From Thermosipho sp. (in: thermotogales) (GTDB taxonomy: Bacteria; Thermotogota; Thermotogae; Thermotogales; Fervidobacteriaceae): 64,000 nucleotides of DNA. The position numbers and the translations under genes were made by a program. Shown piece by piece: positions 3,263 through 10,532 of the stretch. The notes beneath the pieces are model-generated. The model saw only the letters and a program-made list of their open reading frames with translations, had not been told where the DNA came from and did no database searches. Position 1 is the first letter of the stretch; the number at the start of each line of letters is the position of its first letter. The stretch lies in the NCBI GenBank assembly GCA_017656335.1, contig JACDOA010000002.1, forward strand, positions 1 to 64,000, given 5' to 3'.

Positions 3263-4438
3263 ATGAAAAAATTTGTATTGGTTTTTTTATTAATTATTGC
3301 AATAGTTTTATTTGCTCAACCAAAACTAACTATTTGGTGTTCAGAAAAACAGGTAGATATACTCCAAAAACTTGGTGAGGAGTTCAAATCTAAATACGGT
3401 GTTGAGGTTGAAGTTCAGTATATTAATTTTTCTGATATTAAATCTAAATTTCTTACAGCTGCTCCGGAAGGGCAAGGTGCAGATATAATAGTGGGTGCAC
3501 ATGATTGGGTTGGCGAACTTGCAGTAAATGGCTTGATTGAACCAATTCCTAATTTCGCGGATCTTAAAAACTTTTATGATACTTCTTTGAATGCTTTTTC
3601 ATATAGTGGAAAACTATATGGTGTTCCTTACGCAATGGAGGCCATTGCCCTCATATACAACAAAGATTTTGTACCAGAGCCACCAAAAACAATGGATGAA
3701 TTATTAGAAAAAGCAAAGGAAATTAATGACGAGTATATAGGAGAAATAAGAGGTTTAATTTTACCTTCTGCAGAGTTCTACTATGTTGTTCCGTTTATTT
3801 TTGGATATGGAGGCTATGTTTTTAAACAAACAGAAAATGGTCTTGATGTTAATGATATTGGATTAGCAAACGAAGGTGCAATTAAAGGGGTAGAACTTTT
3901 GAAAAAAATGGTAGATGAAGGAATACTTGATCCGAGTGACAATTATCAAATCATGGATTCTATGTTCAAAGAAGGTCAAGCTGCAATGATTATTAACGGT
4001 CCTTGGTCAGTAAAAGCATATAAAGATGCCGGAATAGATTATGGGGTTTCACCAATACCCGATCTCGAACCTGGTATTCCAGCCAAACCATTTGTCGGGG
4101 TACAAGGATTTATGGTAAATTCTAAATCCCCAAACAAATTATTAGCAATTGAATTTTTAACCAATTTTATCGCAAGAAAAGACACAATGTTTAAGATCTA
4201 TCAAGCTGATCCCAGGCTACCAGCTAGAAAAGATGTTCTTGAAATAGTAACAAATAACCCAGATATTGTCGGTTTTACAATGAGTGCAGCAAATGGTATT
4301 CCAATGCCAAATGTTCCTCAAATGTCTGCTGTATGGGGAGCAATGAATGATGCTTTAAATCTCATAGTAAATGACAAATCATTTATTGAAGATGCTTTAA
4401 AGAATGCAGTTGAAAGAATACTATCTCAAATTAAATAA
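3263..4438 (+). CDS. malE: Sugar ABC transporter substrate-binding protein, MalE-like
   Basis: The 391-residue protein has a Sec signal peptide (hydrophobic core, cleavage likely after LFA) without a lipobox cysteine. An extracellular solute-binding family 1 domain of maltodextrin-binding type follows. Typical segments are KLTIWCSEKQ, the GADIIVGAHDW loop, GVPYAMEAIALIYNKD and AAMIINGPWSV. It should deliver oligosaccharides to the MalF/MalG-like permease encoded next. The ATG follows AAGGAGGTGG. Because an endo-galactanase gene closes the operon, the ligand may be a beta-galacto-oligosaccharide rather than maltose; that is inference. Neither an ATPase (MalK) nor a regulator is encoded nearby. 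Confidence 0.88.
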   Translation: MKKFVLVFLLIIAIVLFAQPKLTIWCSEKQVDILQKLGEEFKSKYGVEVEVQYINFSDIKSKFLTAAPEGQGADIIVGAHDWVGELAVNGLIEPIPNFADLKNFYDTSLNAFSYSGKLYGVPYAMEAIALIYNKDFVPEPPKTMDELLEKAKEINDEYIGEIRGLILPSAEFYYVVPFIFGYGGYVFKQTENGLDVNDIGLANEGAIKGVELLKKMVDEGILDPSDNYQIMDSMFKEGQAAMIINGPWSVKAYKDAGIDYGVSPIPDLEPGIPAKPFVGVQGFMVNSKSPNKLLAIEFLTNFIARKDTMFKIYQADPRLPARKDVLEIVTNNPDIVGFTMSAANGIPMPNVPQMSAVWGAMNDALNLIVNDKSFIEDALKNAVERILSQIK

Positions 4439-4445
4439 TTTTACA

Positions 4446-4461
4446 GGGGGCAAATGCCCCC
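4446..4461 (+). terminator. Intercistronic hairpin between malE and malF
   Basis: A six-base-pair all-GC stem (GGGGGC/GCCCCC) with loop AAAT is followed by a pyrimidine-rich TTCTTTT. It sits in the 50-base gap between malE and malF. The tail is a weak T run, so partial termination or protection of the malE mRNA 3' end is more likely than a full stop. Confidence 0.6.
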
Positions 4462-4488
4462 CTTCTTTTCATCACAAGAGGAGGGGAA

Positions 4489-6225
4489 ATGTTGAAAAAC
4501 ATAACAAAATTCTTTCTCTGGTTTTTACTTTCTATTTTTAATATTTTTTTATTTTGGATTTCTTTCTTTCTACTTCAAAATAACTACTATGAGCTTTCTA
4601 TAGTTCTTTTTACTCTAATTATTCTTATTGATTTTTTCATTTTTAATCCTAAGGCTTACCCTTATCGTTACATTATTCCAGCCTTAATTTTACTCTTTAT
4701 CCTAGTTCTTTATCCTATTTATTTTACTTTTAAAATCGCATTTACAAATTATGGGACTGGCCATTTTATGACCAAACAAGATGCAATTGAACGATTGTTG
4801 TATGATCCAAATTTTTCTTATGTAATTGATGAAAACCCTGTTTCCTACAAAGTCTTTGTTGTTTATAATGGGCTATCACCCACAGATGATTTTGTTATTC
4901 TATTTAAAGTAAATAACGAACTTTTCTTAGGTGAAAAACCTATTCCTAAAAAAACCAGAGGTCAAGAAGTATTACTAAGCCAATTCGATTTATTTAAAAT
5001 TGATAATGAATCAATATCACTAAATGGAAAAAATTATCAAATTATTCCTTGGGAAAATGACTTGGAAAAAATTAATCTAATTATCATAAATAACAAATCT
5101 TACAAAAGTTTTTATTCACCAGATAATGACTTATTAGCTATTAACGCACCTCATTTCAAAACAAGAATCGCTCAAAATTACCTTTCTCATGCGGAATATA
5201 TTACTCCAGATGGCAGTAAATATGCCTTAAAAATAGCAAGTGATGGAAAATGGAGATTTATGAAAATTCAAAGACTTTACAGGCTTTCTTATAAAGAAAT
5301 ATATGAAAACGGAAAATTACAAATGCAGTTATCATTAATAAACAATTATACAAATAAAGAAGTTTTAGAAAAAGATGGAGCTTTTTATGATATTGACGAA
5401 AATGGCCAAGAAACATTTTTAATGGGATTCATAGATTTCGTTGGATGGAAAAATTTTGTAAGAATTATAAAAGATCCAAAAATTTCAGGACCATTCTTTA
5501 GAATCTTCATTTGGACATTCATATGGGCTCTTTTGAGCGTAATACTTTCGTTGGCTGTCGGACTCCCTTTTGCATTAGTATTAAATGATACAAATTTAAA
5601 AGGTAGAAATATTTACAGGACACTTTTAATAATTCCATGGGCAATACCTGTTTTTATTTCTGCTCTTGTTTGGAGAAACGGTCTTCTAAACGAAAGTTAT
5701 GGAATTATCAATAAATTTTTACTTCCTTTATTAGGTATTAATTCCATAAAGTGGTTGAACGATCCTTTCTGGGCACGTGTGGGTGTCTTATTGGTTAATA
5801 TGTGGCTCACATTCCCATATATGATGACTATTTCATTAGGAGCATTGCAAAGCATCCCGCCTGAGCTTTATGAGGTTGCTGCTATAGATGGAGCTGGGAA
5901 AATTAAAAGATTTTTAAATATAACATTTCCGCTTTTAATGAGTATAATTGCTCCATTACTGGTAAGCAGCTTTGCTTTTAGCTTTAATAACTTTACAATA
6001 ATATACTTAATCACTGGAGGAGGACCTCCAATACCTAATTCAACTACCCCAACAGGATATACAGATATTTTAATTTCATATGTATATAAATTAGCCTTCG
6101 AAGGAGGACAAGGTCAGAATTTTGGATTTGCTAGTGCTATATCTATTCTAATTTTCTTCTTAGTCGGAGGAATCAGTATATTAAACTTTAAGTTGACAGG
6201 GACTTTTGAAGAGGTGAATCGTTAA
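4489..6225 (+). CDS. malF: Sugar ABC transporter permease, MalF-like
   Basis: The 578-residue inner-membrane permease has about three N-terminal helices (residues 5-80). A soluble extracytoplasmic domain of about 240 residues (roughly 85-325) follows, in the place of the E. coli MalF P2 domain that contacts the binding protein. The C-terminal transmembrane block carries the EAA loop (EVAAIDGAGKIKRFLNITFP, about 465-484), which docks on the ATPase. The ATG follows GAGGGGAA. Its TAA overlaps the ATG of malG by one base, so the two permeases are translationally coupled. The family is clear; the substrate is not. Confidence 0.87.
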   Translation: MLKNITKFFLWFLLSIFNIFLFWISFFLLQNNYYELSIVLFTLIILIDFFIFNPKAYPYRYIIPALILLFILVLYPIYFTFKIAFTNYGTGHFMTKQDAIERLLYDPNFSYVIDENPVSYKVFVVYNGLSPTDDFVILFKVNNELFLGEKPIPKKTRGQEVLLSQFDLFKIDNESISLNGKNYQIIPWENDLEKINLIIINNKSYKSFYSPDNDLLAINAPHFKTRIAQNYLSHAEYITPDGSKYALKIASDGKWRFMKIQRLYRLSYKEIYENGKLQMQLSLINNYTNKEVLEKDGAFYDIDENGQETFLMGFIDFVGWKNFVRIIKDPKISGPFFRIFIWTFIWALLSVILSLAVGLPFALVLNDTNLKGRNIYRTLLIIPWAIPVFISALVWRNGLLNESYGIINKFLLPLLGINSIKWLNDPFWARVGVLLVNMWLTFPYMMTISLGALQSIPPELYEVAAIDGAGKIKRFLNITFPLLMSIIAPLLVSSFAFSFNNFTIIYLITGGGPPIPNSTTPTGYTDILISYVYKLAFEGGQGQNFGFASAISILIFFLVGGISILNFKLTGTFEEVNR

Positions 6226-8699
6226 TGGTACAGAAAAAAAGAAAATTAATTACACATATCATTCTTATTTTCTTAATTATAGTTATTTTATTTCCCGTTG
6301 TATGGGTTATCACAACTTCAATAAGAAGAGACGAAGCTGCATTTTCTACAAAGCTTTTTTCATCGAGAGTTTCTCTGCAGAACTACAGAGACTTAGTTTT
6401 TCCTGAGAAAAACCTTCCTTATTTAATCCAATCACTTCAATCAATGATTCAGTTGGTAAAACCATATGATTCCTGGGATAAAGATAAATTAAATAATAAA
6501 ATCGATAATTATATAGATAGAGTAGAAAATTATCTTCTTGAAACTGAGAACAGACTAGATGAAGTTGAACAATCATACGAAAACATCAAAAACTATTTAT
6601 TAGAGCATAGTCATGATATTAAAAATCAGGTGATTAATAACATTGAAAACTTAATCAACATTATTAATATTTCAAACTTGCAACCCACAATAGAAAATGA
6701 GGCTGCTTTGTATGTAATTCTTTCAAAAGAAAGGTTTAATTCCACAACACATAAAGCGTTGAAAGACTTTTTAGATAGCTTTACAGATTTAGACACTAGT
6801 TCTAGAAGCAACTATGAAAAAGCTTTAGAAAAACTAAAAGAAAGTTATGAAAAAACCTTAAATGGTTATGATAAGATCTACCTAAATACTGAAAATGAAC
6901 TTAACAAATGTAAATTCGAAATTAACGAATTGCAAAAAAAATATCAAGTCTTTCAGAATAAAATCTTCGAAATAAATATAATCTTGGAAAAAGACATTAC
7001 CCCTGAACTTGAAAAATTAACTGAATCATTAAAAAACTTAAACAACTTAAAAGAAAACATCAAAAACTCTTCTACAGAAAACCCATATATTATTGACGAT
7101 TCTGAACCTATTAAAAATTTGGAGGAAGTTGACAAACTTTTAAATGATTTAATTACCAATCTAGAAAAACTCCCAGGTTATGATAATTTAAAAAATATTC
7201 TAAAAATACAGAAGGATGAAATTGAAAAATTAATGCTTGAAAATGATAGTTTAAAAAATAAACTTGTCTACTCTAATCTTATAAATATTTATTATAGCGA
7301 ACTTCATCCTAGAATCCTAAAAATATATAATGAAATAAAAACTAATATTTTTGATATAAAAGATATTATTTATGCATTCGAAAATTTAAACGATCAGTTA
7401 GAAAAATTAAAAAATAAAGAAAATGAATTAACAAATAAAAAGCTAGAAATTGAAAAAAAATTGTTCGAAGTTCAACAATTATTTATTGAACCTCAAAAAG
7501 TATATAATTTAAAAATTTTCAAAGAAAAATTACATAACTTGATTACTTCTTTAGAAAAAGCAAAATCTTTTTCAAAAATAGATTTAATAAAGTATCATTC
7601 GACTTTAAAGACCCTTCGTGAATTTTCAAACTCTTACAATGAAAAAGATGAATTGCAAAAAAACGTTAACAAAATAATACAAGATTTAAATTGGATAGAA
7701 ATATACAGGGATTTCGAAAGTAAGATGGAAAAAATTCCCGAAAATCTTAAAAATATTTTAACAGACATGGAGAAGTCTCTAAATGATTTCAAGAACTCTT
7801 ATAAAGATCTTTTAAACCTTTCTTCAAATGGGATTTTTGTATCTTCTGAAATTCTAAATAAAATGTACGATACTGTAAAAATGGATTTTGTAAATAAAGT
7901 AAGAGCTAACATGTCCATCGCCTCTCGTAAAGCCAGCATACTACTCGACTTAATTCCTTTTAACGTGTTAAAAAGTGATTTTAAAAATATTGATAAGCAA
8001 TTATTTAGAATTGATCAAATCTGGAAACAAAAAATAAAACACTATTTCTGGTTGTGGGTTTTAAATTCAGTAATTATTTCTTTAATTGTTGCTACTATAA
8101 CTACAGCTGTTTGCGCAATAGCTGCTTATCCATTTAGTAGAATGAAATTTTTCGGAAGACGTTATGGAATCATAGCTCTGTTGTTAATTCAAATGTTTCC
8201 AGGTGTTGTATTTATGATTGCAATTTATGATTTATTAAATTTTATTGGAAGATATGTTTCATTTTTAGGTATAGATACTTTAGGTGGTTTAATTTTTGCA
8301 TATTTAACTAACATTGCTTTTAATATGTTTTTAATTAAAGGTTTCTATGATACTATTCCAATATCTCTGGAAGAAGCTGCTATCGTAGATGGAGCAACAA
8401 GATTCCAAAGTTTCTATAAGATAATTCTTCCACTTTCTAGACCAATTTTAACTGTAGTATTTTTACTTATTTTTATGGGGACTTTTAATGAATATGTAGT
8501 TGCAAGAATAATACTACAAGATGTCAAGCATTATACTTATGCACTAGGTTTACAATCTTTTGCCACTGGACCTTATGAAACTGAATGGGGTCTTTTTACA
8601 GCTGCAGCGTTGCTGGGGATGGCCCCAATGATTATACTGTTCTTATCACTTCAAAAATATCTTGTTAGTGGTCTCACTAGAGGTGCAATAAAAGAATAA
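6225..8699 (+). CDS. malG: Sugar ABC transporter permease, MalG-like, with giant coiled-coil insert
   Basis: At 824 residues this is almost three times the usual MalG length (about 280-300). Residues about 10-30 form the first membrane helix. Residues about 40-610 are Lys, Glu, Asn and Leu-rich with many heptad-like stretches and look like long coiled coils. The standard permease core begins near residue 612 (HYFWLWVLNSVIISL) and includes the EAA loop EEAAIVDGATRFQSFYKII. The insert therefore lies in the first extracytoplasmic loop. The reading frame is intact, so this is not a fusion error. I recall similarly long MalG proteins in Thermotoga, which makes it a lineage trait. Confidence 0.87.
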   Translation: MVQKKRKLITHIILIFLIIVILFPVVWVITTSIRRDEAAFSTKLFSSRVSLQNYRDLVFPEKNLPYLIQSLQSMIQLVKPYDSWDKDKLNNKIDNYIDRVENYLLETENRLDEVEQSYENIKNYLLEHSHDIKNQVINNIENLINIINISNLQPTIENEAALYVILSKERFNSTTHKALKDFLDSFTDLDTSSRSNYEKALEKLKESYEKTLNGYDKIYLNTENELNKCKFEINELQKKYQVFQNKIFEINIILEKDITPELEKLTESLKNLNNLKENIKNSSTENPYIIDDSEPIKNLEEVDKLLNDLITNLEKLPGYDNLKNILKIQKDEIEKLMLENDSLKNKLVYSNLINIYYSELHPRILKIYNEIKTNIFDIKDIIYAFENLNDQLEKLKNKENELTNKKLEIEKKLFEVQQLFIEPQKVYNLKIFKEKLHNLITSLEKAKSFSKIDLIKYHSTLKTLREFSNSYNEKDELQKNVNKIIQDLNWIEIYRDFESKMEKIPENLKNILTDMEKSLNDFKNSYKDLLNLSSNGIFVSSEILNKMYDTVKMDFVNKVRANMSIASRKASILLDLIPFNVLKSDFKNIDKQLFRIDQIWKQKIKHYFWLWVLNSVIISLIVATITTAVCAIAAYPFSRMKFFGRRYGIIALLLIQMFPGVVFMIAIYDLLNFIGRYVSFLGIDTLGGLIFAYLTNIAFNMFLIKGFYDTIPISLEEAAIVDGATRFQSFYKIILPLSRPILTVVFLLIFMGTFNEYVVARIILQDVKHYTYALGLQSFATGPYETEWGLFTAAALLGMAPMIILFLSLQKYLVSGLTRGAIKE

Positions 8700-8711
8700 G
8701 GAGGTATATTT

Positions 8712-10532
8712 ATGAAAGAAATACTTATTTTCCTTATGATTTCAACAGTTTCATTCAGCTTAATTGTCAATCCAATAGAAAATCTCAAAGAAGATTTTAT
8801 CTTTGGAATGGATGTTTCAATGCTTTATGAAATTGAAAAAAATGGTGGCAAATATTTTGATGAAAACGTAGAGAAACAATGTTTAAACATTTTAAAAGAG
8901 CATGGTGTAAACTGGATTAGATTGAGAGTTTGGAATGATCCTAAAGATGAAAACGGAAATCCTCTTGGTGGTGGTAATTGTAATTATGAAAATATGACTG
9001 AAATAGCAAAAAAAGCGAAAAATTTAGGATTAAAAATTTTCCTAGACTTTCATTACAGTGACTGGTGGGCAGACCCTGGAAAACAAAATAAGCCAAAAGC
9101 ATGGATAAATCTTCATGGTAAGGAACTTGAAAATGCAGTATATGATTACACAAAGTTTGTTTTAACTTACATGAAAAACAATAATGCTCTTCCAGAAATG
9201 GTTCAAATTGGAAATGAAGTAAATAATGGTTTCTTATGGCCAGATGGAATGATCTTCGGAAAAAACGCAGGTGGCTTTGAGGGATTCACAAAGCTTTTAA
9301 ATGCTGCAATCAAAGCTATAAGAGAAATTGATCCATCTATAAAAATTGTTATTCACCTTGCAGAAGGAGGAAATACTAAACTTTTTAAAGAGTTTTTTGG
9401 GGAATTAATTAACAGAAACATTGATTTTGATATAATTGGAGTTTCGTATTATCCTTACTGGCATGGAACATTTGAAGATCTAAAAAAGACTATTTTTTTA
9501 GTCTCAAGAAAATACAAAAAAGACATTATAATTGCTGAAACAGGATATGCCTGGACGGCAAATAACGGAGACAATCATCCTAATTTATTTAGCAAAGGAA
9601 TGGAATTATCAGGTGGATACTTAGCAACAATTCAAGGACAAACAACTTTTCTAAGGGATTTAATTGAACTGGTTAATAACGTGCCAGATAATAGAGGACT
9701 TGGAATTTTTTATTGGGAAGGTGAATGGATTCCAATTAAAGGAGCAGGGTGGAAAACTGGTGAAGGAAACCCTTGGGATAACCAAACTTTATTTGATTTC
9801 AATGGAAATGCTCTTCCATCACTTGATATTATGAATTTAATTAAAACTTCGCCAGCTACAGAAGTAAAAATGCTGAAAATTTATCCTGTTGAACTCACAT
9901 ATAACTTAGGTGAAGAAATTGATTTACCAAAAACAATTAAAGCCTTGTTTTCAGATGATTCTATCAGATCACTACCTGTAACCTGGAATTTAAATCCCGA
10001 AATATCAGAAATACCAGGTGTTCATAAAATTGAAGGAATTATAAAAAGTACAAAGGAAAAAATATCTGCTACTGTTACCATTAAAAATACAAGAAACTTT
10101 CTTAAAAATCCCAGTTTTGAAACTGGAGAATTTGCACCATGGATAGTTCTGAAAGATATTAACGCCGTCAAAATTGAAAAAGCTAATCCTCCAGACAATG
10201 CACATAATGGTGAATATGCTGTTAATTTCTGGTTAGATAGTCCTTTTAGTTTTGAACTCTATCAAGAATTAGAAATTTCAAATGGAAAATACAAAGTTGG
10301 TTTCTGGACACATGGGAATGCTGGTGTAAAAGTTATTATGAAAGTAAGTGAATATGGAGGAGAAGATAGATATGTAGAAATAGAAGAATCAGGTTGGTTA
10401 AATTGGCACAATCCAATAATTGATGGTATAAATGTTAGTACCGGTAAAATTAAAATAAGCATTATTGTTGAAGGAAAAGAAGGTGATTGGGGCTTTTTAG
10501 ATGATTTCTATCTTTTTAAAGAAGATGAATGA
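8712..10532 (+). CDS. Secreted GH53 endo-beta-1,4-galactanase with carbohydrate-binding tail
   Basis: The 606-residue protein starts with a short signal-like hydrophobic segment, then a GH53 arabinogalactan endo-beta-1,4-galactanase domain (about 25-380). Visible features are FGMDVSMLYEIE, VNWIRLRVWNDP, the acid/base Glu in VQIGNEVNNGFLWP and the nucleophile Glu in IIIAETGYAW. A bacterial Ig-like Big_4 type domain (about 395-460) and a C-terminal domain starting FLKNPSFETGEFAPW follow. That domain resembles the galactan-binding CBM61 known from the Thermotoga maritima enzyme. It would cut pectic galactan outside the cell, feeding the transporter encoded just upstream. The ATG follows AAGGAGG. 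Confidence 0.9.
   Translation: MKEILIFLMISTVSFSLIVNPIENLKEDFIFGMDVSMLYEIEKNGGKYFDENVEKQCLNILKEHGVNWIRLRVWNDPKDENGNPLGGGNCNYENMTEIAKKAKNLGLKIFLDFHYSDWWADPGKQNKPKAWINLHGKELENAVYDYTKFVLTYMKNNNALPEMVQIGNEVNNGFLWPDGMIFGKNAGGFEGFTKLLNAAIKAIREIDPSIKIVIHLAEGGNTKLFKEFFGELINRNIDFDIIGVSYYPYWHGTFEDLKKTIFLVSRKYKKDIIIAETGYAWTANNGDNHPNLFSKGMELSGGYLATIQGQTTFLRDLIELVNNVPDNRGLGIFYWEGEWIPIKGAGWKTGEGNPWDNQTLFDFNGNALPSLDIMNLIKTSPATEVKMLKIYPVELTYNLGEEIDLPKTIKALFSDDSIRSLPVTWNLNPEISEIPGVHKIEGIIKSTKEKISATVTIKNTRNFLKNPSFETGEFAPWIVLKDINAVKIEKANPPDNAHNGEYAVNFWLDSPFSFELYQELEISNGKYKVGFWTHGNAGVKVIMKVSEYGGEDRYVEIEESGWLNWHNPIIDGINVSTGKIKISIIVEGKEGDWGFLDDFYLFKEDE

Follow-up and report, generated by a model that had tools for sequence, protein, structure and literature searches.

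A predicted helical insert in the first periplasmic loop of the sugar permease MalG is nearly universal in Thermotogota and may act as a stalk for MalE

Among ABC importers MalFGK2 is the textbook case, with its binding-protein contacts resolved in atomic detail. A malG gene found in a 64,000 bp stretch of a Thermosipho sp. genome (contig JACDOA010000002.1, positions 1–64,000; hereafter the window) raises the question of what a giant first external loop on the permease of such an importer looks like, how widely it occurs and what it does. This touches on the general question of how a permease is located by its soluble binding protein in an envelope whose periplasm is very wide. The gene (6225–8699, + strand) starts with ATG and possesses no internal stops, confirming the single intact frame of 824 residues given in the original prediction. 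Its product was identified as a CUT1/MalG-type permease from family and PDB matches over residues 609–823.

The gene closely follows malE (3263–4438, +; identified from the ORF and family matches, with the N-terminus read directly) and malF (4489–6225, +; 578 aa, with a large P2 loop on family matches and hydropathy), and the run, in the order malE, malF, malG, GH53, is closed by a gene for a GH53 protein (beta-1,4-galactanase family) with a Big_4 domain (8712–10532, +; ORF and family matches). MalE scored 308.8 bits against NF007011, above the MalE equivalog cut-off of 291, and has a signal peptide without lipobox, on which it should be soluble. The best match of MalF was NF008232 at 378 bits, slightly below the cut-off of 392; DUF4896 and TM_PBP2_N domains precede its large P2 loop. 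The GH53 neighbor suggests galacto-oligosaccharides as candidate cargo.

Hydropathy analysis of MalG placed TM1 at residues 12–30 (6258–6314, +) and TM2 at 616–634, with no hydrophobic segment in between. The conventional core, comprising TM2 onward and the EAA loop, occupies residues 609–823 (8049–8693, +), in line with the expectation that it would be confined to the last 200 residues or so. Positions 82–295 of the 296 in NF008231 (MalG) correspond to residues 609–823, and positions 83–295 of E. coli MalG (PDB 2r6g_G) align with residues 610–823 (E 6.9e-56). Both matches put the entire surplus over E. coli MalG, whose P1 loop is short, ahead of TM2, at ~527 residues. NF008231 was the best NCBIfam match, its 237 bits lying somewhat below the cut-off of 261 with the match split by the insert, and Pfam detected BPD_transp_1 (PF00528; 49.5 bits, cut-off 26.4) alone, with no wall-binding, SLH or outer-membrane anchor domain in the insert. 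TM1 is followed by a conserved segment, FSTKLFSSRVSLQNYRDLVFPE, with the pattern S-x-RRD-x-AAFS-x-x-LFSSR...Y-x-DL, which extends to around residue 62 and precedes the insert. The latter covers residues ~64–602 (6414–8030, +), delimited by the family and PDB matches, the AlphaFold2 (AF2) model and its periodicity, and has a size of ~530–540 residues. An extent of ~570 residues from 6340 to 8030 had been proposed; the end holds, while the start lay ~25 residues early, giving ~535 residues from 6414. The insert is rich in Lys, Glu, Asn and Leu as had been noted (L 13.3, K 12.6, N 11.7, I 10.3, and E 9.8%), and homology to the known MalG topology likewise places it outside, in the first external loop.

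The existence of the insert is not new, having been published in 2008, and the mention of long MalG forms in Thermotoga that accompanied the original prediction was correct. A hydrophilic region of ~500 residues between TM1 and TM2 was described in MalG1 and MalG2 of Thermotogales, without an assigned function, and was reported missing from MalG3 and every other MalG then known (Noll et al., 2008; PMC2246101). These permeases (T. maritima mal1, TM1204-1202, and mal2, TM1839-1836) share the region and the malE-malF-malG type with the window; mal1 is described as an apparent mannooligosaccharide transporter with the ability to bind maltose as well (PMC2246101). A literature search, in which subscription journals were thinly covered, turned up no paper after this one that describes the insert or gives it a structure or a function. 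Whereas the 2008 paper gives no fold, the present analysis adds a predicted architecture and occurrence in Dictyoglomota, together with the phylum-wide distribution, conservation pattern, height estimate and the insert of a second permease.

The insert is predicted to be helical and shows heptad periodicity. A heptad repeat corresponds to 102.9 degrees per residue. Within the insert, windowed hydrophobicity has its peak at 102–103 degrees, with a significance against shuffles of z ~9.8 for the window sequence alone and ~15.6 for the alignment average, which bears out the heptad-like runs previously remarked on (peak at 102 degrees). In the unrelated insert of a second permease (C8, see below), used as a control, the heptad peak was not seen (z 0.3 at 103 degrees). 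An AF2 model of the window MalG, built on an alignment of 25 sequences, is nearly all helix across residues 60–600 with a pLDDT of ~90, which rules out a disordered insert, one of the outcomes named in advance as fatal to the coiled-coil reading. In the model two base helices (86–127 and 129–146; 6480–6662, +) are followed by smaller helices across 156–187, an ascending arm of two helices (194–212 and 215–279; 6804–7061, +), a poorly conserved tip of short helices (280–346; 7062–7262, +) and a descending arm formed by a single predicted helix of 98 residues (347–444; 7263–7556, +), which has a counterpart of 94 residues in the second model. After this arm come a helix at 451–470 and base helices at 476–534 (7650–7826, +), 542–576 and 580–600, which lead back to TM2; the last two lie in a conserved membrane-proximal base (521–605; 7785–8039, +) recognized in the alignment, conservation profile and model and bearing the motif IDK-x-LFRIDQIWKxK.

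The second model, of a deep-branching ortholog (L089, 933 aa), has the same helix order at 29% full-length identity to the window MalG (86–159, small helices, 280–393 rising, tip 394–459, 460–553 descending, 590–642, 650–683, and 688–708); the two models share most alignment rows and so are not fully independent, and the pairing of helices was deduced from helix order and length alone. The TM core of the window model is weak (pLDDT blocks of 32–75), presumably because the alignment is shallow, and the angle of the stalk to the membrane is therefore not fixed by the models. On this modeling the structure of the insert itself appears fairly secure. A Foldseek search of the model against the PDB gave significant matches to MalG-type permease cores only; MukB, Rad50, the dynein stalk and others, tried as a known fold, matched at E 0.026 or worse, as generic coiled coils.

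With a rise of 0.15 nm per residue, the length of the descending arm would be ~14.7 nm and that of the base helices ~9 nm, so that stalk height estimated from helix lengths is ~15 nm with the two side by side and ~24 nm end to end, with a small extra for the tip. The models thus predict a helical arm of roughly 15–25 nm. It had been proposed that one antiparallel hairpin of ~40 nm would suffice to cross the periplasm and touch the toga or hold the binding protein. A coiled coil in an outward loop is indeed present and the residue total would be enough for one fully extended hairpin, but both models break the insert into base, two-helix arm and tip, with a longest predicted helix of 98 residues in the window MalG and 114 in L089, and on their architecture a single 40 nm hairpin was rejected. 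Against it also stands the gap itself: the Omp-alpha rod of T. maritima is reported to measure 50 nm, in correspondence with the distance from inner to outer membrane (PMC5082667). We consider this arrangement very improbable, and the geometry proposed is ~twofold too long. An envelope-spanning length of 50 nm, as in Omp-alpha, is likewise not reached at ~24 nm plus tip at most by predicted helix lengths. By itself the modeled stalk would end near mid-periplasm, and because it is estimated at ~15–25 nm against 50 nm it is unlikely to reach the toga without a partner. Omp-alpha (OmpA1) resembles the insert as a spacer of coiled-coil type within the periplasm of a similar envelope. It differs as a connector of toga and wall that combines an SLH domain with a 50 nm rod, modeled as a multistranded parallel coiled coil, and lies outside any transporter.

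Conservation is unevenly spread along the alignment. Information per block is 1.6–3.1 bits at residues 41–100, falls to ~1.2–1.3 bits in the arm and 1.0 bits in the tip, the least conserved part, and climbs from 1.7 to 2.9 bits across residues 521–605, where the base motif IDKxLFRIDQIWKxK lies. The profile is that expected of a spacer standing on a functional foot, not of a long surface for specific binding. Compared with the window proteins, MalE and MalF from the same operons are 46–76% identical and the N-terminal regions that contain the insert 18–53%. Coiled coils that act as spacers have been described as diverging in sequence in this way while their helix order is kept (PMC5082667). Total insert length ranges across lineages from ~465 to 652 residues, being nearly constant inside families and shifting from family to family: 465 and 518 in Dictyoglomota (n = 2), 498–552 in Thermotogales, ~570 in family f11, ~581–596 in f10 and ~632–652 in f7, f8, and f9. 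As insert length varies by lineage, an exact stalk height is not fixed.

The search for relatives covered 390 genomes (103 Thermotogota and 287 others). A profile running from TM1 through the insert to TM2 found the insert in 98 of the 103 Thermotogota genomes, and in 81 of the 82 of good quality, with matches mostly end to end. The long malG frames of this phylum are mostly ~786–963 aa, some being shorter, probably through truncation at the end of a contig or disruption. One genome has several stops within its long malG (G041:C17:16729-18710), which may be frameshifts, sequencing errors or a real pseudogene. The source genome holds a second full-length copy on its contig C17 (805 aa, 42% identical over residues 1–823), with malE and malF of its own. 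This paralog and the 98 genomes rule out an assembly artifact, so that neither this case nor absence from relatives, also named beforehand as refuting, arose.

Outside Thermotogota the profile gave one match in 287 genomes, identified by its coordinates as a Dictyoglomota genome (G109), and none in the 286 of other groups. A peptide scan of genome contigs used one pattern only and missed most Dictyoglomota, making it a weak negative outside Thermotogota for which the profile search is the better guide. Long MalG was found in six of seven Dictyoglomota genomes, at 746–799 aa where the gene could be read complete, and in stretches long enough to show them malF and GH53 lie next to the gene (L119, L121-L125). 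A 4.3 kb contig labeled Dictyoglomaceae (L073), which was among the hits of the peptide scan, had been suspected as a contaminant, a reading dropped given the presence of the gene in these six genomes. Because long MalG also occurs in Dictyoglomota, the 2008 statement that the region is in no other MalG needs amending. For a GH53 gene of the D. turgidum genome, Dtur_0857, the best match reported carries a locus tag of Thermotoga type, TRQ7 (PMC5167688).

A tree was built on the MalG core only, excluding the insert; it is a quick one without bootstrap and with very long outgroup branches. The Dictyoglomota rows form one group nested in Thermotogota, the enclosing branches having SH-aLRT values of 92–95, and on this nesting the operon probably moved from Thermotogota to Dictyoglomota. 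The window malG clusters with g13, a genus that belongs to another family (85% core identity; groups of 6 rows at 87 and 16 rows at 100). The C17 copy clusters with the genus of the window itself; in the three further genomes of that genus the C17 type is the only one present. By this placement a different Thermotogota family is the probable source of the malEFG-GH53 run (3263–10532). Long malG has malF, and likewise malE, as its neighbor on all contigs that extend far enough and in which a homolog was scored. The MalE genes read beside long malG encode signal peptides without lipobox, the sole pattern match (L086) falling in an over-extended start, and their products should for this reason be soluble.

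The same loop is enlarged in a second CUT1 permease, encoded by L018:2458-4623 (−) on contig C8 of the source genome (G000), which has 721 aa and an insert of >400 residues between TM1 and TM2. Its gene adjoins a MalF-like gene and hslU. Homology of the two inserts was rejected: BLAST aligned the core only, plus an 18-bit chance alignment, and hhalign gave a probability of 5%. The C8 permease is thus like the window MalG in its enlarged loop and nearly phylum-wide occurrence, and unlike it in sequence and in showing no heptad periodicity. A profile of the C8-type insert matched 98 of the 103 Thermotogota genomes and none of the 287 others at the cut-off used; a single-sequence search found the permease in 100 of the 103, a few matching weakly. 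The insert was not found in the seven Dictyoglomota genomes, nor was a published description of it found in a narrow literature search. The MalF-like partner beside hslU (L018:4625-5911, −; 428 aa) has extra hydrophobic segments ahead of its permease core, and no binding-protein gene was seen near the C8 permease in the 8 kb read. One genome has a stop that divides its C8-type permease in two (G090:C1:631926-633469; frameshift, sequencing error or real pseudogene). Enlargement of one loop in two permeases with different material may reflect a demand of the envelope and not an accident of one gene.

As to function, an interaction of MalG-P1 with MalE has been reported for E. coli/Salmonella (Daus et al., 2007, as cited in PMC3150292). 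Because the insert sits in this loop and MalE should be soluble in a wide periplasm, we favor a helical stalk on MalG-P1 that acts as a spacer or docking tower for MalE, a proposal made tentatively and at a little under even probability; on our analysis, holding MalE is the most plausible function of the insert. The stalk would have grown from the first periplasmic loop of a MalE-MalF-MalG sugar importer, with its conserved base seated on the permease at the site that contacts MalE in E. coli. The conserved foot may shape the site for MalE. The tip and the arm of two helices would project roughly 15–25 nm into the unusually wide periplasm, where they could keep soluble MalE near, or well posed over, the translocation path, or restrict its approach. 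The computations show an external loop, a predicted helical coiled-coil arm, a conserved base and near-universal presence in the phylum; that the insert touches MalE, how rigid and tall it is in the cell, and its part in retention are inferred. A large periplasmic loop that contacts MalE is already known from the same transporter, namely MalF P2 (E. coli, Thermotogales); unlike the insert it belongs to the partner subunit, is unrelated in sequence and has ~180 residues in E. coli (PMC2246101). Counting against a docking tower, conservation in the arm and tip is poor, which is unlike a specific binding surface, and E. coli makes do with a short P1 although its MalE is soluble too.

The main rival is anchoring to the wall or envelope, whereby the tip would bind peptidoglycan or an envelope protein (e.g., Omp-alpha) mid-periplasm and fix or organize the importers under the toga, leaving MalE binding unaffected. 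The estimated height of 15–25 nm would reach the middle of a 50 nm space, the insert is near-universal in a toga-bearing phylum, and in another importer there the same loop holds a giant insert of a different kind; however, Pfam finds no wall-binding domain in the insert, and the tip that would do the binding is its least conserved part. We regard such anchoring as possible but unlikely. Arms of adjacent transporters could alternatively pair as intermolecular coiled coils, bringing MalFGK2 into arrays or dimers. Oligomerization is common among coiled coils and a strong heptad pattern runs through ~540 residues, but the confident single-chain model of the insert fits intramolecular pairing, and clustering of this kind seems rather improbable.

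It might also be supposed that the stalk has little or no dedicated function, being an ancient tolerated insertion that is inherited while its sequence drifts, as fast divergence of the arm and a total length anywhere from 465 to 652 residues would allow. We give this little credence: near-universal retention (98/103 genomes), a helix order preserved at low identity, persistence after the probable transfer to another diderm phylum, Dictyoglomota, and the parallel enlargement of a second permease all speak for a role of the stalk.

A whole phylum runs a MalFGK2 variant with a predicted helical arm of ~540 residues on the loop reported to touch the binding protein. More broadly, the sugar permeases of Thermotogota may bear stalks, in at least two unrelated and near-universal inserts in the same loop, as docking towers or standoff spacers for an extra-wide periplasm. 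This generalization is a speculative one, which we think doubtful at present; if true, permease stalks would be a layer of ABC importer architecture with no description elsewhere.

A further permease of the source genome, OppC-like and on contig C11 (L096:1169-2803, +; 544 aa), is apparently enlarged, with ~270 residues lacking a Pfam match between OppC_N (residues 28–79) and the core (354–542).
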